Positions 3,546 to 31,010 of a stretch of DNA of 64,000 nucleotides are shown in pieces. The position numbers and the translations under genes were made by a program. Numbering within the stretch: the stretch's first letter is position 1; every line of letters begins with the position of its first letter. The DNA comes from Parvibaculum indicum (GTDB lineage: Bacteria > Pseudomonadota > Alphaproteobacteria > Parvibaculales > Parvibaculaceae): NCBI RefSeq assembly GCF_011762095.1, contig NZ_JAASQO010000004.1:1-64000 (forward strand). Reading direction: 5' to 3'. The notes under the pieces were generated by a model that saw only the letters and a list, made by a program, of their open reading frames with translations, ran no database searches and was not told where the DNA came from.

Positions 3546-4337
3546 ATGAGTGCGATCATCGATTTCGACGAGAATGCCGCCAGGGCGCTGGAGGCGACCT
3601 ATCTGACGCCGGATGTCGTGGCGCAGCGCGCAAGGGTCATCGACATGCTGGCGCCGCGGGTCGGCGAGCATATTCTCGACCTCGGCGTCGGGCCGGGCCT
3701 TCTCGCCTATGATCTGGCGCGGCTCGTCGGCGAGACGGGCCGCATGGTGGGGCTCGACGTCTCGCCGGCCATGATCACCATGTCGAAGACGCGGCTCGCC
3801 GCGCTACCCCAGGCCGATTGCCTGGTGGGCGACGCGGTCGCGCCGGATTTTCCCGACGACCTCTTCGATGCGATCGTCTCCACGCAGGTCCATGAATATG
3901 TGACCGATGTGGACAAGTCGCTCGCCGCCATCAAGCGGCTGCTGAAGCCGGGCGGGCGCGCGCTCATCCTCGACACGGACTGGCGCAGCATCGTCTGGCA
4001 TTCCTCCGACGAGGCCCGCATGGCGCGCATGCTCTCCGTCTGGGACGACCATCTGGCCGACCCGTTTCTGCCCGCCACGCTGGGCGCGCGCCTTGGCCGG
4101 GCAGGGCTCGGCGTGGCGCGGGTGGAAGTCGTGCCCATGCTGGCGCCGCAATGGCAGCCGGTGTCCTATGCCGCGGGCATGTTCCGCATGATATCCGGTT
4201 TCGTGCGGGCGAATGCCGAGCGTCATGGCGTGGCGGCGGACGAGGTGCAGGCCTGGTACAACGACCAGCTCCGCCTCATCGAGCGCGGCGAGTTCTTCTT
4301 CAGCGTGAACCGTTACGCCTTCCTGGCCTATCGCTGA
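3546..4337 (+). CDS. Class I SAM-dependent methyltransferase
   Basis: 263 aa from ATG 3546, chosen because GGGAGGA stands 6 bases upstream. The Rossmann core is clear: motif I ILDLGVGPG (about 43-51), GLDVSPAMI with the acidic residue that binds the SAM ribose, VGDAV, and LLKPGGRALILDTDW. The fold resembles UbiE/COQ5 and small-molecule methyltransferases. The C-terminal third carries aromatic residues (WQPVSYAAGMFRM) that could line a substrate pocket. It converges on a TetR gene only 6 bases away. The substrate cannot be deduced. Confidence 0.8.
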   Translation: MSAIIDFDENAARALEATYLTPDVVAQRARVIDMLAPRVGEHILDLGVGPGLLAYDLARLVGETGRMVGLDVSPAMITMSKTRLAALPQADCLVGDAVAPDFPDDLFDAIVSTQVHEYVTDVDKSLAAIKRLLKPGGRALILDTDWRSIVWHSSDEARMARMLSVWDDHLADPFLPATLGARLGRAGLGVARVEVVPMLAPQWQPVSYAAGMFRMISGFVRANAERHGVAADEVQAWYNDQLRLIERGEFFFSVNRYAFLAYR

Positions 4338-4343
4338 GGCGGC

Positions 4344-4979
4344 TCAGGCGCCGTAGCGGGCGAGGTAGAGGTCTATCGCGGCCTGGACGATCTTGTCGGC
4401 GTCCTCATGCGGCGACACGTCCTCGCCGAAAAGGGCCGGCCAGATGAAGAACTCCTTCACCATGCCCGAGAGCAGCCTCGTGCCCTGCGCCGTGTCATGC
4501 GGCTTCAGCTCGCCGGCCTCGACATATTTGTCGAGCAGTTCCTGAATGTGCCTGTAGCGCGTTCTGGTGCTGCGGTCGTAGACCGTCTGCGCCAGTTGGG
4601 GCGCGGAGGGAACTTCCGCGATCACCGCGCGAAGCAGGGCGTTGCCGTCATGCGAAAACTGCTGGTCGATGCAGCCGATCAGGAGCTGGCACAGCGCGTC
4701 GCGCACCGGCTTTCCCTGATAGTTGTTCGGGCCGATGGAGGTGCCGGAATAGGCATCCTCGACCACCGCGCCGAACAAGACGTCTTTCGATGAGAAGTGC
4801 TTGTAGAGCGTGGCCGTCGATACGTCCGCCTGCCGCGCGATTTCGGCCATTGCCGCGCGCGTATAGCCTTCGGCGAAGAAGTTCTGGCGTGCTGCTTGAA
4901 GAATGGCGGCGCGTTTGGCGTCGCTGACGGTGCGTCTATAGGTTTCCAGTCCCAACTTGCTTCTTTCCTTCGGTGCCAT
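4344..4979 (-). CDS. TetR/AcrR-family transcriptional regulator
   Basis: 211 aa from ATG 4979; an in-frame extension upstream to 5078 is less likely. The TetR helix-turn-helix spans about residues 15-65: RAAILQAARQNFFAEGYTRA, then EIARQADVSTATLYKHFSSKDVLF. The remainder is the all-helical ligand-binding and dimerisation domain (TetR C-terminal, AcrR-like). A plausible promoter lies upstream on the minus strand (TTGACC then TATAGG, spacing 19). No target operon is obvious. The neighbours are the convergent methyltransferase gene and the co-directional sortase locus. Confidence 0.87.
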   Translation of the reverse strand: MAPKERSKLGLETYRRTVSDAKRAAILQAARQNFFAEGYTRAAMAEIARQADVSTATLYKHFSSKDVLFGAVVEDAYSGTSIGPNNYQGKPVRDALCQLLIGCIDQQFSHDGNALLRAVIAEVPSAPQLAQTVYDRSTRTRYRHIQELLDKYVEAGELKPHDTAQGTRLLSGMVKEFFIWPALFGEDVSPHEDADKIVQAAIDLYLARYGA

Positions 4980-5137
4980 GTCTGGCAAAAGGGAGACCCC
5001 GCTTCCTATAGGACTGAAAAGACAAATCCGGTCAAGTGTTCCCGAACAAAAAATATTTCCCGGGCGAAGGTTCATCACCCGTAATGGAGCGGTAATACCT
5101 TTTTTGAAAGTAAGTTCTACTCCTTAATTATTCTTGC

Positions 5138-5746
5138 TTACGATATAACTTGCTTAGCAATCACCAGATAGCGCAATGAACCCCGTGCGACCGCGTCGAA
5201 GGGATAGCAGGTCACGAGCACGAGGCCGTTTCCGGCGGCCGGATCCAGCGTTGTCGTAGCGGCGTCAACGACTTGTGTTCCGGTTACTGAATAAACCGTC
5301 CGGCCTCCTTCCAGGGTTGTCAGCACGATCCGGTCGCCTGAACGCAGCTCTTTCAGGAAAGAGAAGTGCGTGTCCCTGTGACCCGCAATGGCACTAAGGC
5401 CTTTTCCGGACAGGTCCGTGGCCGACATATGGCCGGGGCCGAAGGCGAGGGCTTCGCCGCTCGCATTCGACAGCACAATTTCGGAAATTTCGAGACGCGG
5501 AACGGAAAGTTGCGCAACGGGCCATGCATCCGCCCATGCCCATGCCTTGTGGGGCGTGCCCGTGCGCAGGGAATCTTCCCAGGCGCTATCGAGAAGCATT
5601 TGCGCTAATTGCGCTTTCGCCTTGATGTAGAGGCCGTGACCGAGCTGCCAGCCGCCGAGCGCAATCAGCAAAGCCGTCAGGACGGCCCCCGCGGGGGCCG
5701 TCCAGTCCGGTCGTTTCCGTACGGATGATATCGGCATCTCCGTCAT
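5138..5746 (-). CDS. Class GN sortase
   Basis: 202 aa, with an N-terminal membrane anchor (residues 17-38). The sortase beta-barrel has the full catalytic set: H123 in AGHRDTHF, C180 in LVTCYPF and R192 in SLRYLV. Sortases are transpeptidases that cleave a C-terminal sorting signal and join the protein to an amino acceptor. The GN class is the Gram-negative form, normally encoded beside a single dedicated substrate. Here that substrate (VIT/VWA protein, LPQTA tail) ends 3 bases upstream, so the two are coupled. The acceptor in Gram-negative envelopes is not established as far as I know. Confidence 0.92.
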   Translation of the reverse strand: MTEMPISSVRKRPDWTAPAGAVLTALLIALGGWQLGHGLYIKAKAQLAQMLLDSAWEDSLRTGTPHKAWAWADAWPVAQLSVPRLEISEIVLSNASGEALAFGPGHMSATDLSGKGLSAIAGHRDTHFSFLKELRSGDRIVLTTLEGGRTVYSVTGTQVVDAATTTLDPAAGNGLVLVTCYPFDAVARGSLRYLVIAKQVIS

Positions 5747-5749
5747 GGC

Positions 5750-8026
5750 TCAGCCCCGCCGTGTGACCCGTCGCCAGAGCAGCATCAGCAGGAAAGCGGC
5801 CAGCAGGGTGAAGAGCCCGTTGCGGATGAGCCCCGGCGCGTCGCTTGCCGTCTGGGGCAGGGCGAGGCCGCGGTCCTGCGCGGTGTCCGCGATCGGGCCT
5901 TCCGCCGAGGCGAGCATGGCGGTGGGCGCGGCGCGCATCGCCTTGTGCATGACGGGTGCGGGTGCGCTCTCGCCGAACACCTTGTCGAACTCCCATCCTT
6001 CGGGAAGGTTCACCGGCATGTCGCGGCTTTCCAGCGGCTCGCCGTCCGGGCGCGTCGGGGTCACGTCCACCGCGACGAGGCTCGTGCGGCGGCTCACCAG
6101 ATGGTGTTCGAGTGCCACGTTCAGGATTTCCGCATCCGCCTTTTCATAGTCGCGGCTCATCAGCCGTTCGGCTTCCAGCGCGGCGATCTTGCGCCGGGCC
6201 CAGAGCTTGCCGATGCCCGACCGCGTTTCGCCGGCATCGAGCGGGACGCGCACCTGCCAGGCCTTGCCGTCCAGTTCGCCCGTGAGGGTGAGGTCGCCCT
6301 GCGCCTTGTCCATGCGCGCGGCCAGCATCACCGGCTCGCCCTTGTAAAGATCGGGGATCGGGTCGGGCCAGCTTTCTGTCCGCGCTTCGTCGGGCCATTG
6401 GGCGGTGACATCGGTGACGAGGGGGTGTTCGAGCTTGTTCGCGAGGTCGGCCATGCGGCTCTTCACCTGGGCGAGGTCGCCGATATGGGTGAAGCTGCCG
6501 CGGCCCGCTTCGGCGGCACGCCTCATGAAATAGGAGTTGGGCGCGGTGCCGATCCCCACCGTGAAAAGGCGCGAGCGGCCGCGATGGCGGGCGATTTCCT
6601 CGAACAGCGCCTTCTCGTTGGAGATGGCCCCGTCGGTGAGGAAGATCACCTGCCGCACATGCGCCGCGTCGCCGGGCGTGCGGTCGGCGAGGGCGGCCTT
6701 CAGCGCGGGCAGCATTTCCGTGCCGCCATCCGCCGACAGCCCGTTCACGAATTTCCGCGCGACGGCGATGTTCTCGCGGTCGGCGCGCACGGGCTGGGGA
6801 AAGAGCAATTCATGCGTGTCGTCGAAGCGGATGATGTTGAAGCTGTCTTCCGGCTTCAGCTTGTCGAGCGCGAAGAGGAGCCCGGCCTTGGCCTGCGGCA
6901 TGGACGCGCCCGCCATGGAGCCGGAATTGTCGATCACGAAGATCGCCTCGCGCGGCTTGGCCTTGGGCTGCGCGGCGCCGGAGGGCGGCATCAGCATCAC
7001 CAGCACATAATCCTCGCCGTCCACCGTCTCGCGGAAGAGTCCGGCAGTGGGGGCGGCGGTTTCGGCGGGCTCCCAGACCAGTTCGAAATCCTTGTCGGCG
7101 GGCACCACCTTTTCGGCCAGCGACAGCTTTGCGCCTTCCTTGCCGATCCGCTGAATATCCACCTTGTGGAAGGAACTCGTCACTTTGCCGAGGGGAAAGC
7201 CCGCTTCCAGCGAGACCTGCAGTGCGACCGGGTTCACCTTGCCCTCTTCGGGGTCGAGGACGGGCGGCTGCGTCAGGTCTTTCGCATTGTCGGGATGGGC
7301 GGTGCCGGGCGGAAGGTCGTCCCTGTCGGGTTGCGTCGTGCCCCAGCCGGAGCCGGGCGCGAAATCCACGACCTGCGGCGCGGCGGCTTCCTTCGGCACA
7401 TAGCGCGGCGCGACCACCATGGGAAAGCGCAGCGAGAAGCGGTCGCCGTCGCGATGCGCGGTCTGCTGATATTCGATCTGGATGGTGACGGATTCATGCG
7501 GGCCGATATTGGCCACTGCATTGGTGAAGACGTTGGGGCGCTGCTGTTCCAGCAATCCGGCCTTCTTGCCTTCCGCTTTCGCCTTTTCGTAGATCCGGCG
7601 GGCTTCTTCCTTTTCCTTGATCTGCCCTTCGATGATGCGCTCGCCGATGATCATCTTCATCGTGTCGACGGCGGCGTCCTCGGGCAGCGGGAAGACATAT
7701 TTGCCTTCCACCCAGCCATCGCCGGGATTGATGAAGCGTTGCGTCACCCGGGCCCGCGCCATGGGGCCGGTCACCTCGATCTTCGCATCGGTGGCGAGCA
7801 GGGGGGCGGGCACATATTTGCCCGGTTCCTTCGACTTCAGAAGCAGCGTACCGCTCTGAACGTCATTGAGCGTGACGAGACCGTTGCGCGCCGCCGCGCC
7901 GTCGGCCCGGGCCGCGACGGTCAGCAGGCCGGTCACCGCGACGAGAGTGGCAAACAGGGCGGCAATGAAAACGATCGCGTCGCGCGGACCCGTATCTTGC
8001 GCGGACCGGTGCGGCAGGCTCCTCAT
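5750..8026 (-). CDS. VIT and VWA domain protein, sortase substrate ('marine proteobacterial sortase target protein')
   Basis: 758 aa with an N-terminal signal or anchor (about residues 15-40). A VIT domain (about 55-190) includes KYVFPLPEDAAVD and a helix rich in EKEEARRIYEKAK. A VWA domain (about 358-530) has an intact MIDAS motif, DNSGS, at 366-370. The C-terminus is a sorting signal: LPQTA at 723-727, a hydrophobic helix, then RRVTRRG. This organisation matches inter-alpha-trypsin-inhibitor-like surface proteins that bind metal-dependent ligands. GAGGGGAT precedes the ATG. With the adjacent sortase it should form a surface-anchored adhesion or scaffold module; the ligand is unknown. Confidence 0.92.
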   Translation of the reverse strand: MRSLPHRSAQDTGPRDAIVFIAALFATLVAVTGLLTVAARADGAAARNGLVTLNDVQSGTLLLKSKEPGKYVPAPLLATDAKIEVTGPMARARVTQRFINPGDGWVEGKYVFPLPEDAAVDTMKMIIGERIIEGQIKEKEEARRIYEKAKAEGKKAGLLEQQRPNVFTNAVANIGPHESVTIQIEYQQTAHRDGDRFSLRFPMVVAPRYVPKEAAAPQVVDFAPGSGWGTTQPDRDDLPPGTAHPDNAKDLTQPPVLDPEEGKVNPVALQVSLEAGFPLGKVTSSFHKVDIQRIGKEGAKLSLAEKVVPADKDFELVWEPAETAAPTAGLFRETVDGEDYVLVMLMPPSGAAQPKAKPREAIFVIDNSGSMAGASMPQAKAGLLFALDKLKPEDSFNIIRFDDTHELLFPQPVRADRENIAVARKFVNGLSADGGTEMLPALKAALADRTPGDAAHVRQVIFLTDGAISNEKALFEEIARHRGRSRLFTVGIGTAPNSYFMRRAAEAGRGSFTHIGDLAQVKSRMADLANKLEHPLVTDVTAQWPDEARTESWPDPIPDLYKGEPVMLAARMDKAQGDLTLTGELDGKAWQVRVPLDAGETRSGIGKLWARRKIAALEAERLMSRDYEKADAEILNVALEHHLVSRRTSLVAVDVTPTRPDGEPLESRDMPVNLPEGWEFDKVFGESAPAPVMHKAMRAAPTAMLASAEGPIADTAQDRGLALPQTASDAPGLIRNGLFTLLAAFLLMLLWRRVTRRG

Positions 8027-8174
8027 GGTGACATCCCCTCATCCATGCGTTTCGGTATGAGTGAGCTTCACCGGGGAATGGGGCGGTGCCGGTCAGAAAA
8101 CCGGGCCGCGGTCTGAAGATTCTGGGGCGATATTATGGCGAGGTCGGATAAGGGGTTGATTCCCCTCGATCCGG

Positions 8175-8928: not shown

Positions 8929-10440
8929 TCAAAACCCGGTTATCTTCTCTTTCTCCAGCACCGCTGCAAGCGTCTTTGCGCCTTTGCGCAGCGCGTCGTC
9001 GGGCACGCCTGCATAGCCCATATGAAAGCCCGGTTCGCCGCCGGGCGTCAGCCGGTAGAAGGAGAGCGCCGTGACGTGAACGCCCGCCTGTCGCGCGGCG
9101 GCCGCGGCGCGCGCGTCGTCCGCGCCGGGAGGTAGCAAGGCGGCGAGCTGCAATCCGCCCTCGCCGGGCGCGGCGCGCAACCAGGGGGCGAGCGTGGTGT
9201 CGAGTTCTTCCAGCTGGATCGCCCGCCGTCTCGCATAGACCTGCCGCATGCGGCGCACATGCGCGCCGAAATGGCCTTCCCCGATGAAGTCGGCGAGCGC
9301 GGCCTGCACCGATACGGACGGGATGTGCCCGGTCAGCCGGATCGCCACGGAAAAGGGCTCGGCGAGGTCCGGCGGCACGATGAGATAGCCGATCCGGATG
9401 GCGGGAAAGAGCGTCTTGGCGAGCGTGCCCATATAGATCACTGCGCCGCCGCGATCGAGGCCCTGCAGCGAGGCGATGGGGCGTCCGGCAAAGCGGAACT
9501 CGGAATCGTAATCGTCCTCGAGGATGTAGCCGCCGCTCTGCGCGGCATGTTCGATCAGGGCGAGCCGGCGCGGCAGGGAGAGCGTCGCTCCCATGGGAAA
9601 CTGGTGCGAGGCCGTGACATAGGCAAGACGCGGCGGCGGCAGGGTGGACATGGCCGTTTCCACATCCATGCCGTTTGCGTCCACTTCGACGGGGCGAATA
9701 TCGGCGCCCGCGCTTATCAGCGCGCCGCGCGCGCCGAGATAGCCCGGTTCTTCCATCCACACCGTGTCGCCGGGGTCGATCAGCATGCGAACGGCCAGGT
9801 CCAGCGCGGCCTGCGCCCCGGCGGTGACGATCACCTGTTCGGGCGCGCAGACGACGCCCCGGTCGGCGGCGGCATAATCGGCAATCGCTTGGCGCAGCCC
9901 TTCATGGCCCTTGTCGACTTCATAGCCGAAGGGATCGTGGCGCGGGTCGCGGCTGTGTTTCGCCAGCAGGCGGCTCCACAGGAGGGCGGGAAAGTCTTCG
10001 ATATCCGGCAGGCCGTGCTGGAAGGGGCGGGTGACGCCGCGCCGGTAGGCCGCCGGGGCCCGCCTCACCCCCTGCATGGCCTCGCCGCGCCGGGAGAGGG
10101 GGCGTTTTTCCGGCCGGGCCGTTCCGGCTTGCGGCCGGGGCGGGGGCCTGTCGCCCGGTCCGGTCAGCCTGTCCGGCAGCAGGTTCGCCACGCGCGTCCC
10201 TGCGCCGATATGGCTGTCGAGATAACCTTCCGCCGTCAGTTGCTCATAGGCGGAGACCACGGTGTTGCGTCCCACGGCGAGGTCGGTCGCCAGCGCGCGG
10301 GAGGAGGGAAGCCGCGCCCCCGGCCTCAGCCGGCCGTCCAGAATGGCCGCGCGCAGCCCGTCATAGAGCTGGCGGTAAAGCGGCAGATCGCCCGCCGCGT
10401 CCAGCGACAGGGTGCCCAGCGGCAATGGCGTGTCCGGCAT
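8929..10440 (-). CDS. MocR/PdxR-type regulator (GntR DNA-binding domain fused to aminotransferase-like domain)
   Basis: 503 aa. The GntR winged helix is at about residues 18-85: PLYRQLYDGLRAAILDGRL, LPSSRALATDLAVGRNTVV, YEQLTAEGYL. After a Pro/Arg-rich linker (90-130) comes a fold type I aminotransferase domain. It has GAQAALDLAVRML, the DDYDSEF aspartate and the PLP-binding lysine K342 in TLAKTLFPAIRIGY. These regulators use PLP as a sensor and often control vitamin B6 genes. It is divergent from a PPOX-type flavoprotein gene, the split barrel that includes pyridoxamine-phosphate oxidases. The shared 112-base gap has two palindromes. Regulation of that neighbour is the natural inference. Confidence 0.9.
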   Translation of the reverse strand: MPDTPLPLGTLSLDAAGDLPLYRQLYDGLRAAILDGRLRPGARLPSSRALATDLAVGRNTVVSAYEQLTAEGYLDSHIGAGTRVANLLPDRLTGPGDRPPPRPQAGTARPEKRPLSRRGEAMQGVRRAPAAYRRGVTRPFQHGLPDIEDFPALLWSRLLAKHSRDPRHDPFGYEVDKGHEGLRQAIADYAAADRGVVCAPEQVIVTAGAQAALDLAVRMLIDPGDTVWMEEPGYLGARGALISAGADIRPVEVDANGMDVETAMSTLPPPRLAYVTASHQFPMGATLSLPRRLALIEHAAQSGGYILEDDYDSEFRFAGRPIASLQGLDRGGAVIYMGTLAKTLFPAIRIGYLIVPPDLAEPFSVAIRLTGHIPSVSVQAALADFIGEGHFGAHVRRMRQVYARRRAIQLEELDTTLAPWLRAAPGEGGLQLAALLPPGADDARAAAAARQAGVHVTALSFYRLTPGGEPGFHMGYAGVPDDALRKGAKTLAAVLEKEKITGF

Positions 10441-10453
10441 CCGGTCTCTCCCG

Positions 10454-10484
10454 ATAATGGTTCCATTATATTTCCATCAATGGA
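10454..10484. promoter_or_regulatory. Two palindromic candidate operators between the MocR and PPOX genes
   Basis: 10454-10469 is a perfect 7+2+7 inverted repeat (ATAATGGTTCCATTAT). At 10473-10484 a second palindrome (TCCATCAATGGA) uses the same ATGG/CCAT half-sites. Both lie just upstream of the MocR start and in the divergent promoter region. MocR proteins usually bind paired sites, so autoregulation and control of the neighbour is inferred. Confidence 0.6.
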
Positions 10485-10552
10485 CCTTCAGATAGGGCCA
10501 ATTTTAGCCGATAGGGGTGCCATTCCCGGTTGCAGCCAATGGAGCGAGCGAA

Positions 10553-12465
<1,913 letters not shown>

Positions 12466-24026: not shown

Positions 24027-24509
24027 TTACTTGTGTTCCTTGAATTCAACTTTCAGGATTTCATAGGACTTGCCGCCGCCGGGCGTGTTCACTTCCACGC
24101 TGTCGCCTTCGGTCTTGCCGATCAGCGCGCGCGCGATGGGGGAGGTGATGGACACCTTGCCCTTTTTCACATCCGCTTCGATCTCGCCGACGATCTGGTA
24201 ATGGACTTCCTCGTCCGTATCCTCGTCGGCCAGCGTGACGGTCGCGCCGAATTTCACCGTGTCGCCCGACAGTTTGGACACGTCGATCACGTCGGCGCGC
24301 GAAATCTTGTCTTCAAGCTCCGCGACGCGGCTCTCGTTCAGGCCCTGCTGCTCCTTCGCCGCGTGGTATTCGGCGTTTTCCGACAGGTCGCCATGGGCGC
24401 GCGCTTCCGAGATCGCCTTGATGATACGGGGGCGCTCTACGGACTTCAGAAACTTGATCTCGTCTTCCAGGGCCTTGTAGCCCGCGGAAGTCATCGGAAC
24501 CTTTTCCAT
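24027..24509 (-). CDS. greA: Transcription elongation factor GreA
   Basis: 160 aa, normal length. The N-terminal coiled coil contains the acidic tip ([20 protein letters not shown], residues 38-57), where the D and E side chains stimulate RNA cleavage in backtracked RNA polymerase. The C-terminal FKBP-like domain includes [26 protein letters not shown]. The gene follows carB on the same strand but is separated by a terminator at 24583-24625, so it likely has its own promoter. Confidence 0.97.
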
Positions 24510-24732: not shown

Positions 24733-27995
<3,263 letters not shown>

Positions 27996-27996
<1 letters not shown>

Positions 27997-28772
27997 TAGA
28001 GAGTAATTCCGAAGAGACTGGCTGCAAGGTGGAGAACGATATTGGCCGCTATGCCAACAGCGTTGTCGGCGAATTTGTTCGCGAGGTATTTAACGGTGTC
28101 ATTTAGTATGATTTCGATGAGGGGAACGCTTATCTGCGGCTGTGAGAGTTGTAGCTCTAAGGCTAGAAGCTCGCCCAAGCGACCTTCTTTGTCGTCAAAG
28201 TCGTTGTCACGATTTTCTTTCGTGGTTTCGATCAGATCGCTGACTGAACTTCGTAGTTTCGCAATTTCTGGTTCATTGTCAGAGTGAGAGACATAGCGAT
28301 TAGATGCGGGGATGCTCTTATCGCTTTCTGAGCTGTCTATTGAGTTAGCTGTAGATGCCGCTTGTTCAGAGGCTTGGGAACCGGCAGGCAATTTGTCGAT
28401 GCCGTCCTGGGTTTTTGTGGATCTGGAAACCTCTTTGGCTCTGGTGTCGAAGCGCTCGTCTGTCCATTTCTGGACTTCGTCAATTCCCGCTTTTGTGATT
28501 GCGTATCCGCTTACGGTTGCATCCACGCCAAGAACGCGCGAAACGCTGCCCGTTAATCTTCGAAATGAAGAGTCAATTTTGCCTTCTTCAATCAACTCTT
28601 CTTTAATTAGATCCCGTATTGTTATATCGATAGTGTTCCAGTTGTGTTTTTTTATTCGACGAACAATATCAATATCTTCTTTGAATCTACCATTTTCTGA
28701 ACTGAAAACTTCATAGAGAACTAGTAATACTAGGTCTCTAGCTTCGTTGAAGTCTATTTTGTTCCTGGGCAT
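27996..28772 (-). CDS. AT-rich hypothetical gene inserted between carA and carB; winged-helix N-terminus, hydrophobic C-terminus
   Basis: 258 aa, family not recognised. Residues 1-100 look like tandem helices with a winged-helix feel ([41 protein letters not shown], then [18 protein letters not shown]). Residues 104-170 are a Ser/Asp/Glu/Gln-rich linker. A charged helix (170-205) and an amphipathic-hydrophobic C-terminus ([19 protein letters not shown], then [18 protein letters not shown]) could associate with membrane. Base composition differs sharply from both neighbours: I count 18 G/C in the 60 bases from 28621. It starts 49 bases after the carA stop with no clear Shine-Dalgarno, and its TAA overlaps the carB ATG. 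It looks horizontally acquired yet neatly placed in the operon. A cargo or defence role is only speculation. Confidence 0.78.
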
Positions 28773-28821
28773 ATGGAGATCTTCAAGCGTGTGAGTTGAG
28801 CGCTTTTTTTTGCATGGGACC

Positions 28822-29982
28822 TTACTTCGCCTCCTCGATGAGCTTCACGAAGCGTTCGAAGAGGTAGTGACTGTCCATCGGGCCGGGGGAGGCCTCGGGG
28901 TGGTACTGGACGGAGAAGACGGGCTTGCCGGAAAGGCGCAGTCCGCAATTCGTGCCGTCGAAAAGGCTCTTGTGCGTTTCTTCCACGCCTTGCGGGAGCG
29001 TTGCCGCGTCCACCGCGAAGCCGTGGTTCATGGAGGTGATTTCCACCTTGTCGGTGGTGAAGTCCTTCACCGGGTGGTTCGCGCCGTGATGGCCCTGATG
29101 CATCTTCACGGTTTTCGCGCCGAGCGCGAGGCCGAGCATCTGGTGGCCGAGGCAGATGCCGAAAAGGGGCTTGCCGCTGTCCACGAGCTTTTTGATTTCC
29201 GGCACGGCATATTCGCCGGTCGCGGCCGGGTCGCCCGGGCCGTTCGACAGGAACACCCCGTCCGGGTTCATCGCCAGCACGTCTTCCGCCTTGGTCGAGG
29301 CGGGGACCACCGTCACGCGGCAGCCGGCATTCACCAGGCAGCGCAGGATGTTGCGCTTGGCGCCGAAATCGATGGCGACGACATGGTGGGGCGCGTCGGG
29401 CCGCTCGCTGAAGCCTTCGTCCCATTTCCACAGATCCTGGTCCCAGTCGTAGCGCTGGCCGCAGGTGACTTCCTTTGCGAGGTCCATGCCGACAAGGCCC
29501 GGCCATTCATTGGCTTTCGCCTGAAGCGCCTGGATGTCGAAATTGCCGCCCGGGTCATGCGCGATGACGCCGTCGATGAAGCCCTTTTCGCGGATGCGCC
29601 GCGTCAGCGCGCGCGTATCGACGCCGGAAAGCCCCACGATCCCGCGCGCCTTCAGCCATTGGTCGAGATGCTGCGCCGCGCGGTAGTTCGACGGGTTCGT
29701 GATGTCGGCGCGGATGACGGCGCCGCGCACGCCGGAAGAGGCGGCGAGGTTGGAGGTTTCGATGTCCTCGTCATTCGCGCCCACATTGCCGATATGCGGG
29801 AAGGTGAAGGTGATGATCTGCCCCACATAAGAGGGGTCGGTCAGGATTTCCTGATAGCCCGTCATCGCTGTGTTGAAGCAGACCTCGCCGACCGCTTCGC
29901 CGATAGCGCCAATACCTCGGCCTTTGAGGACGGTGCCGTCTTTCAGGACGAGAAGGGCGGTGGGCGTTTCGCTGGCGGTCAT
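28822..29982 (-). CDS. carA: Carbamoyl-phosphate synthase small (glutaminase) subunit
   Basis: 386 aa from ATG 29982; a longer in-frame extension to 30177 has no family similarity. The N-terminal CarA domain ([35 protein letters not shown]) precedes a class I glutamine amidotransferase. The nucleophile is in [15 protein letters not shown] and the His-Glu pair in [11 protein letters not shown]. It supplies ammonia to CarB. A good sigma-70 promoter at 30230-30258 implies a leader of roughly 240 bases. An unrelated AT-rich gene separates carA from carB, although all three should be co-transcribed. Confidence 0.97.
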
Positions 29983-30229
29983 GCGTGTCACTTCCGTTGG
30001 CTCATCGGGCGGTCGTGGAGCCGGGAGATCATCGCACATGCGCGTGGAGACTCCTCCCCGGAACTCCGGCTCGCATAAGGCGAGCGCCGTTCCGTGGCGG
30101 CTGTCGTCGACACCAACATGGCTGGTCTCCCGGGAGAGGAACTCTGCAAAGGCCGGGCGTCTGTCGTGATCCGTCACGCTGGCGGCGCGCCGGGCGGCAG
30201 ACTCGCGGAGATTCCGTCAAATCGCGCGG
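29983..30229 (-). other. Long 5' leader of carA
   Basis: Between the proposed promoter and the carA ATG lie about 245 bases. Several GC-rich inverted segments occur (for example GCATAAGGCGAGC near 30073 and CATGGCTGGTCTCCCGGGAG near 30118), but no recognised riboswitch, and no leader peptide I can defend. Pyrimidine- or arginine-responsive attenuation is conceivable but not demonstrated. Confidence 0.35.
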
Positions 30230-30258
30230 ACACTAAGCGAAGCCTCGAAAAGCGTCAA
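30230..30258 (-). promoter_or_regulatory. Sigma-70-type promoter of the carA operon
   Basis: On the minus strand TTGACG (30258-30253) and TAGTGT (30235-30230) are spaced by exactly 17 bases. This is the only such pair that I find upstream of carA. The remaining gene-free bases to 30447 show no other structure. Confidence 0.65.
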
Positions 30259-30447
30259 GCTGGCTTTCGTTTATTTTTCCCGAGCAAATTCAGCTAGTTA
30301 GCTCTTTCGCGCCGCGGCCGTAATCCGTTTGCGGTTGTCGCGCCTTTGCTTTAGCGTGTGCCGCCATTCCGGGGCGTGGCCAGGGGCCCCCCGGGCACAT
30401 CGTCGCTAGGGCGTATTATCTCATTCAAAGGCATTCGGAGACGGGTC

Positions 30448-30912
30448 ATGGGCCAATCCTTGCGCGAACGCATCAAGCAGGGTCTGAACGAGGCGACCAA
30501 GAGCCAGGACAAGACGCGCACGGGCACGCTGCGTCTCATCGTGGCCGCCATCAAGGACCGGGATATTGCGGGCCGCACCGACGGGCGCGACGGCGGCGTG
30601 GGCGAGGCGGAGATCATGGAAGTGCTCTCCAAGATGATCAAACAGCGCCGCGAATCCGCCGAAACCTATGAGCAGGCCGGCCGCATGGAGCTGGCCGGGC
30701 AGGAGCGCGACGAAATCGCCGTCATCGAGGAATTCCTGCCCAAACAGATGGACGACACGGAAATCCAGTCCGCCGTGGACAGCGTGGTGTCCGAACTTGG
30801 CGCCGACGGCCTCAAGGATATGGGCCGCGTCATGGGCGAGTTGAAAAGCCGCTATGCCGGGCAGATGGATTTCTCCAAGGCCGGCCCCCTGGTGAAGGCC
30901 CGGCTGGGGTAA
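30448..30912 (+). CDS. yqeY: GatB/YqeY domain-containing protein
   Basis: 154 aa from ATG 30448 (GGAGACGG upstream). It matches the YqeY family: LRERIKQGLNEATKSQDKTRTGTLRLIVAAIKDRDI in the helical N-half, RRESAETYEQAGRMELAGQE and EEFLPKQMDD in the middle. A C-terminal domain like the tail of GatB follows (MGRVMGELKSRYAGQMDFSKAGPLVK). It may bind tRNA, but its function is not established. The gene precedes dnaG and rpoD in the same direction, the position where rpsU stands in E. coli. Confidence 0.93.
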   Translation: MGQSLRERIKQGLNEATKSQDKTRTGTLRLIVAAIKDRDIAGRTDGRDGGVGEAEIMEVLSKMIKQRRESAETYEQAGRMELAGQERDEIAVIEEFLPKQMDDTEIQSAVDSVVSELGADGLKDMGRVMGELKSRYAGQMDFSKAGPLVKARLG

Positions 30913-31010
30913 GTCCTGCCTATGGCGGGCTGCCCCGCGCGGTGGCACAATAGAGGGCTCAGCCGGGTTTGAGACCCGGTCCCTGAAACTGAGCCGATTG
31001 CACGACAGCC

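Follow-up and report, generated by a model that had tools for sequence, protein, structure and literature searches.

A compositionally deviant gene between carA and carB of Parvibaculum indicum belongs to a recurrent and seemingly modular alphaproteobacterial family

The carAB operon of Parvibaculum indicum was analysed within a window of 64,000 nucleotides (contig NZ_JAASQO010000004.1, positions 1 to 64,000). In this operon an open reading frame (ORF) of 777 bases, stop codon included and starting with ATG, lies between carA and carB. The window's genome is referred to as G000, and compared genomes and loci carry G and L numbers. The features of the locus, in window coordinates, are listed in the order in which they are read on the minus strand:

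28822 to 29982, minus strand: carA; the methionine of MTASETP in a longer ORF was chosen by hand as its upstream end.
28812 to 28815, minus strand: ATGC, upstream copy of a direct repeat.
28783 to 28815, minus strand: possible leader ORF of 10 codons (ATGCAA...TGA), read from the sequence and speculative.
27997 to 28815, minus strand: 819-bp segment absent from genome G015, its ends ambiguous by the 4-bp repeat.
27996 to 28772, minus strand: accessory gene of 258 amino acids, supported by the ORF and by homologues at the same junction.
28443 to 28772, minus strand: N-terminal part (about residues 1–110) with a winged-helix-like signature, a weak DUF3780 resemblance and similarity to G019.
27999 to 28313, minus strand: C-terminal domain (residues 154–258, starting IPASNR), family-defining and predicted to be helical.
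27993 to 27996, minus strand: ATGC, downstream repeat copy, which forms the first bases of carB.
24733 to 27996, minus strand: carB, whose ATG has one base in common with the stop codon of the accessory gene (TAATG).
24027 to 24509, minus strand: greA, downstream of carB.

The layout is thus carA-orf-carB on a single strand. The accessory gene fills 777 bases of the 825-bp gap, one of them within carB, and 49 nt are left beside carA. A preliminary description of this DNA had reported a gene of deviating composition at this place with a stop codon sharing one base with the carB start, and both observations were borne out: GC content in the gap is 0.45 compared to 0.63–0.64 in the flanks. The same holds for copies of the gene family at this junction in other genomes, with a GC of 0.44–0.51 against 0.57–0.66 around them, lower in all 13 measured. 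A transposable element, or a mobile element with its own machinery, was rejected since neither a transposase nor a second coding-strand ORF is present, and a toxin-antitoxin pair since beyond the 49 nt the gap has no room or partner for one (ORF list of at least 70 amino acids). An RNA element was ruled out on the account of Rfam, which had no match in 27000–31000. Inverted or direct repeats of 12 or more bases were absent from 27900–28900, the 4-bp direct repeat being the only one found. A pattern scan of 27900–30400 returned no promoter-like site and one terminator-like site, at 30330, outside of the accessory gene.

The closest carB relative (G015, 92% identical over 163 amino acids) has a carA-carB gap of 6 bp, GGTCCC. 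In the window the order is GGTCCC, ATGC, the accessory segment and then the ATGC with which carB starts; the ATG of the possible leader ORF occupies the position of the carB start in this empty site. The flanks of the two genomes are about 95% identical, with no divergence peak at the junction. As the gap in G015 is only 6 bp, the 819 bp were either gained in the window or cleanly lost in G015, and from two sequences alone an insertion and a deletion are equally possible.

In order to evaluate how widely the gene occurs, carB loci were collected from the taxonomic family, many of the genomes compared being draft assemblies. A carB match was obtained in 30 of 40 genomes, and the carA end was found in 28 of the 30 loci examined; among 27 Parvibaculum genomes searched, carB was found in 20. 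The resulting 28 gaps measured at most 6 nt in 15 cases, 63–202 nt in four and at least 481 nt in nine. Six of the nine large gaps hold a member of the family defined by the C-terminal domain, namely the window, G023, G001, G019 and the distant G006 and G036 (pairwise profile E 5.4e-9 and 5.6e-6), and in G019 and G036 a DUF559 ORF is present besides it. The other three comprise G011, with a gene of similar build to which the C-terminal profile does not align and which is counted tentatively, and G004 and G033, with only a DUF559 ORF. A further member, in G013, is located at a contig end. The contig of G029 begins inside the gap, and a DUF559-like ORF was seen there by eye. Within Parvibaculum, the C-terminal domain was detected by profile A4 in 6 of 27 genomes, in all six directly before carB, and the same profile reported no second copy in any of these carriers. 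Mapped on a carB tree of 30 genomes, with good support for 14 of its 27 inner branches, the presence of seven members requires at least six changes, or seven with G011.

The preliminary description had called the gene an orphan, which proved incorrect, as relatives exist and the C-terminal domain constitutes an unnamed alphaproteobacterial family. It had also proposed that the gene was spliced into the operon. Its predictions for sister strains, absence of the gene or other cargo in its stead, were borne out by the nearest relative, with its 6-bp gap, and by other species with a different gene at the same place. A single event is too simple given that the family recurs at the junction. Conservation across the whole family with adapted composition, named there as the sign of an old housekeeping role, was not what was found: six of 27 Parvibaculum genomes are carriers and GC is lower at the 13 of 13 junctions measured.

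The junction was surveyed further across the class, where carB was found in 189 of 241 genomes. Of 129 further loci, taken from a ranking of the matches listed, 108 showed carA upstream, and in the other 21 no carA turned up within the stretch available. Gaps were at most 10 nt in 63 of the 108 and at least 344 nt in 21. The large gaps contained DUF559 ORFs (in four), a Fic ORF, a nucleotidyltransferase and NTase-binding pair, a polyketide-cyclase-like ORF and transporter-like ORFs (by eye) and, in one case (G154), the accessory C-terminal family. These varied contents indicate that the junction tolerates cargo widely and that the accessory family is one regular guest.

Several of these loci were inspected individually. 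The nucleotidyltransferase pair of L158 (G148) and the Fic ORF of L154 (G066), the latter on the opposite strand, both lie between carA and carB. DUF559 ORFs were seen in the gap on either strand, amid GC-rich repeats by eye, at L027, L035, L036, L103, L109, L135 and L157, the one at L036 being outside the domain scan. At L157 (G221) the first 26 nt of the gap, before the DUF559 ORF, are similar to the carB 5' end (77%, E 0.004). An ORF of about 210 amino acids at L104 (G047, 1851–2498) occupies a low-GC gap (0.52 vs 0.65) and is by eye unrelated to the accessory family. At L023 (G019) and L038 (G036) a DUF559 ORF separates carA from the accessory gene, and a second carA 3' end stands directly before the latter (55 nt at 80% and 59 nt at 97%, respectively), overlapped by it by one base in both. 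A duplicate carA end was absent from six other DUF559 junctions tested; the two positives out of eight imply that insertions do occur at the junction.

Stop and start codons at the junction are closely spaced. Among 15 junction copies (the G011 copy being tentative), 13 have a distance between −8 and +3 nt from the accessory stop codon to the carB ATG, the exceptions being G011 (19 nt) and G036 (60 nt); in G154 the sequence reads TAG directly before ATG. On the carA side, 10 of the 15 start −4 to +7 nt from the carA stop. Other arrangements there, besides the second carA end in G019 and G036, are the 49 nt of the window, a position behind an SRPBCC-like ORF (by eye) in G177 and the contig end in G013. 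Translational coupling to carB, as put forward in the preliminary description, is supported by this anatomy across species.

Compared pairwise, the C-terminal domains of G000, G013 and G023 have 66–74% identity at codon positions 1 and 2 and 29–32% at position 3; for third codon positions of carB the value is 0.69–0.75. Because dS was saturated in four of the five pairs run, no dN/dS ratio is given for these three; the fifth pair, G000 and G001, had a dN of 0.79 and a dS of 3.16. Judged by codon positions, the C-terminal domain is under constraint and the accessory ORF behaves as a real protein gene. Its alleles either predate the split of their hosts by far or evolve much faster.

The two halves of the protein have different affinities. 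In the window protein the C-terminal half matches G013 and G023 at 60–63% and the N-terminal half matches G019 (30% over 119 amino acids), whose own C-terminal half is of another flavour, nearer to that of G350 of another family (44%). In G001 and G013, CarB is 99% identical over the first 648 codons, with 0.89 identity at carB third codon positions. Their C-terminal halves are only 40% identical (third codon positions 0.28), and their N-terminal halves are similar at chance level only. Moreover, the G001 C-terminal half is 52% identical to a Bradyrhizobium conjugative-plasmid protein, compared to 40% with that of its sister G013. Given the near-identical CarB and the different halves of this pair, the accessory cassette seems to be exchanged at the carA-carB junction. 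Exchange via homologous recombination with import of long flanks was unsupported, as a divergence peak at the junction was lacking between G000 and G015 and was likewise lacking in carB between G001 and G013.

Faithfulness to the site was evaluated by position-blind searches with C-terminal profiles in class-level samples of 289 and 385 genomes, in 96 genomes from the order of G356 and in 398 from the phylum, these samples overlapping. The family is characterised by a match to the C-terminal profile and a PASDR-like or W.PLP.DR start, both found in the window protein; its score with profile A4 (E 4.6e-34) is by construction, since this protein sits in the profile. The window's own genome apart, 14 members were found in other genera. 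Six lie between carA and carB (G102, G177, G350, G039, G771 and G648) and eight elsewhere (G161, G356, G092, G763, G809, G807, G445 and G481). Some share a genus (G177 with G039; G356 with G445 and G481) or a family (G771 with G648), and the six junction copies therefore represent four families and the eight others six. By a rough estimate, only one in several thousand genes would be expected at a given junction; four junction copies went into the first profile, which may favour junction-like sequences. That 6 of 14 position-blind copies in other genera, standing for 4 of the 10 families, keep to this site is a puzzle open to direct testing. The G154 copy, at carAB, is outside this tally because it entered profile A4 via the junction survey, and so is a plasmid copy. 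Two matches were dropped as chance, G111 (E 7.4e-4, absent in a later profile search) and G618 (E 3.6e-4, a chemotaxis-like ORF by eye). Outside Alphaproteobacteria only the dropped G618 matched in the phylum sample of 398 genomes, and a narrow scan that also reached other phyla returned two loci, both of the window's genus.

The copies elsewhere have diverse surroundings. At L207 (G807, 4270–5064) the member is directly behind gyrB (by eye), one of its ATG codons overlapping the gyrB stop by 8 nt, and is followed by a DUF559 ORF. At L194 (G092, 5451–6707, minus strand) the C-terminal domain forms the tail of a 416-aa DapF-like ORF (DapF by eye). The member at L205 (G763, 7319–8131) lies on the opposite strand amid phage-like genes, with a major capsid gene at 10204–11163, about 2 kb off, and that of G356 is about 2 kb from a PIN-domain ORF. 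The sole plasmid relative found, at L190 (Bradyrhizobium elkanii plasmid pK03D-1, 5386–6321), is directly behind a dCTP deaminase gene, with a MazG_C ORF, a UDG-superfamily ORF and an IS630 transposase nearby. Known defence genes were not seen by eye near the members of G809, G092 and G807, except for the DUF559 ORF by G807. Plasmid cargo in general was rejected, as five plasmid queries, one being that record's own protein, gave one record of 72,556 and the window C-terminal domain matched none. A phage origin was likewise rejected: phage records held no homologue of the window or plasmid protein and viral contigs no match (close relatives only) for the C-terminal domains of three other members, though the G763 member is near a capsid gene.

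Searches for function returned matches below threshold. Residues 18–102 of the window protein resemble Pfam DUF3780 (PF12635) at E 2e-4 and 21.6 bits, below the cut-off of 27, and the protein scored 15.1 bits against NCBIfam NF042961 (anti-phage-associated DUF3780), for which the cut-off is 200; of eight members scanned, only one had a DUF3780 resemblance. A winged-helix-like signature, defined after inspection, was present in 10 of 20 members compared to 0.87 expected in shuffles. The AlphaFold model of the window protein has a mean pLDDT of 50, with residues 1–157 below 50 and a block of 66–86 from residue 161, and its C-terminal half is modelled as helix pairs plus two short strands. The winged-helix-like N-terminus of the preliminary description accordingly stands as a signature but is weaker than stated, considering the sub-threshold DUF3780 score and the low pLDDT. 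A structure search, recommended there as a check, gave no match: Foldseek found nothing at E ≤0.001 in PDB or BFVD, the best BFVD row being an uncharacterised Ralstonia phage protein (E 0.027, rmsd 12.1). The hydrophobic C-terminus described there is present in the window protein (Kyte-Doolittle 1.94 over residues 238–256) but is not a family trait, as the highest 19-residue window ranges over 0.73–2.30 in 18 members and is sometimes away from the C-terminus. Being variable in strength and place, it does not indicate a membrane anchor shared by the family, and that candidate was rejected.

With PADLOC the window protein had no match below E 0.023, and none up to E 3 to PDC-M14B, a phage-defence candidate of that library. 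The N-terminal parts of two relatives did match PDC-M14B (G161, E 9.8e-7; G809, weak, 8.5e-4), and the C-terminal part of G036 matched another PDC-M14B model weakly and in register (0.018). When seven proteins encoded at the plasmid locus were scanned with PADLOC, neither the member nor the dCTP deaminase, the MazG-like or the UDG protein was matched, the sole match being an upstream I42-inhibitor-like ORF (capP, 6.5e-14). With no Pfam, NCBIfam, PADLOC or structural match for the window protein, a function can only be inferred, and this applies to the "defence or regulatory" role of the preliminary description, whose interpretation as a whole is partly supported.

At the level of sequence, the comparisons establish presence and absence of the gene in close species, differing pairings of its halves, a differently built member in a sister species, constraint on its C-terminal domain and recurrence of the family at this junction in several alphaproteobacterial families. 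Our leading explanation, held tentatively, is that a modular accessory family is lodged in carAB, most likely as a single-gene system of phage-defence type that uses the essential operon as a platform. The window gene would be one allele of this family, which occupies the carA-carB gap in the orientation of the operon, and its protein would be translated from the car transcript through stop-start coupling at one or both ends. The winged-helix-like N-terminal part may recognise DNA or another signal, and the shared helical C-terminal domain could execute a response or multimerise. The essential, always expressed operon would serve as an expression platform for a defence-type gene. Such a function is put first on the account of the PDC-M14B match of G161, the neighbours on the plasmid, the capsid gene near the G763 member, the PIN-domain ORF near that of G356 and the DUF559, nucleotidyltransferase/NTase-binding and Fic ORFs in other large carA-carB gaps. 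Against it, roughly half of the copies are at carAB, a placement that a general defence gene does not need; the window protein fits no defence model, and only one plasmid record was found.

An insert between two coupled essential genes might instead be hard to delete without harm to carB and persist as a selfish or neutral passenger free of benefit. The many unrelated inserts at the junction and the duplicated carA end at two of eight DUF559 junctions are in line with this, but a passenger is unlikely, as the C-terminal domain is constrained at its first two codon positions and the clean empty site means that removing the gene, or never carrying it, is tolerated. The gene could also stay at the junction as a local regulator or partner that tunes car expression or CarA-CarB assembly, an idea fitting the six of 14 position-blind and all six genus copies at carAB, the spacing of −8 to +3 nt to carB in 13 of 15 junction copies and the winged-helix-like signature. 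This is quite unlikely, since most relatives, having carA and carB close together (15 of 28 gaps ≤6 nt), lack the gene, sister species have unrelated N-terminal halves, and copies are also found downstream of gyrB, at the end of a DapF-like ORF, close to a capsid gene and on a plasmid; a defence-type function is more likely than that of a car regulator. An old, vertically inherited resident, very fast evolving and often lost, for which exchange is merely apparent, would account for the same site in several distant families, for an ATGC repeat from which insertion and deletion are indistinguishable in two sequences and for flanks free of any divergence peak marking recombination, but is improbable given the unrelated N-terminal halves of G001 and G013 at 99% CarB identity, the G001 C-terminal half nearer to a plasmid protein and a GC that remains below that of the flanks.

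The explanation as a lodged defence-type gene can be extended, as a conjecture of low probability: the carA-carB junction may be a docking site for a swappable immune family in Alphaproteobacteria, favoured because car transcription would rise at pyrimidine shortage, as in phage replication, and make the operon an infection sensor that serves any recognition domain occupying the site. In any event, an unnamed modular family lies stop-to-start within an essential operon and differs between sister species whose flanks are nearly identical. The usual places to look for accessory genes are islands and prophages. If this one serves defence, more such genes could be looked for at junctions within essential operons; should it be a regulator, control of the car operon includes a layer that swaps between species.

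In the literature searched no paper was found on a shuffled family faithful to the carA-carB junction, nor one that names PDC-M14. Among known systems, DUF3780 is weakly similar to residues 18–102 of the window protein, below the Pfam and NCBIfam cut-offs, and PDC-M14B is of similar length and is matched by the relatives in G161, G809 and G036 but not by the window protein. In Neisseria, restriction-modification genes are found between pheS and pheT, i.e. as cargo between coupled essential genes. Like the carAB junction, that site holds variable genes between two housekeeping genes; a restriction-modification gene was not seen at the carA-carB junctions surveyed here. The nearest parallels in position are in other car operons. 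In Pseudomonas syringae the order is P32-carA-carB-greA in the available text (PMC4997734). In Xanthomonas citri it is carA-orf-carB-greA-rpfE, where the ORF and carA share one base, RT-PCR indicates one operon and transcription is suppressed by glutamate, uracil and arginine; the same source cites carA-orf-carB-greA in P. aeruginosa, whose ORF has no similarity to that of X. citri (PMC4619228, available portion). The available portion reports neither exchange nor domain shuffling for these ORFs, and their likeness to the window is one of position. As in the window, an ORF lies between carA and carB and greA follows carB, and an ORF at this position is thus already a known kind.
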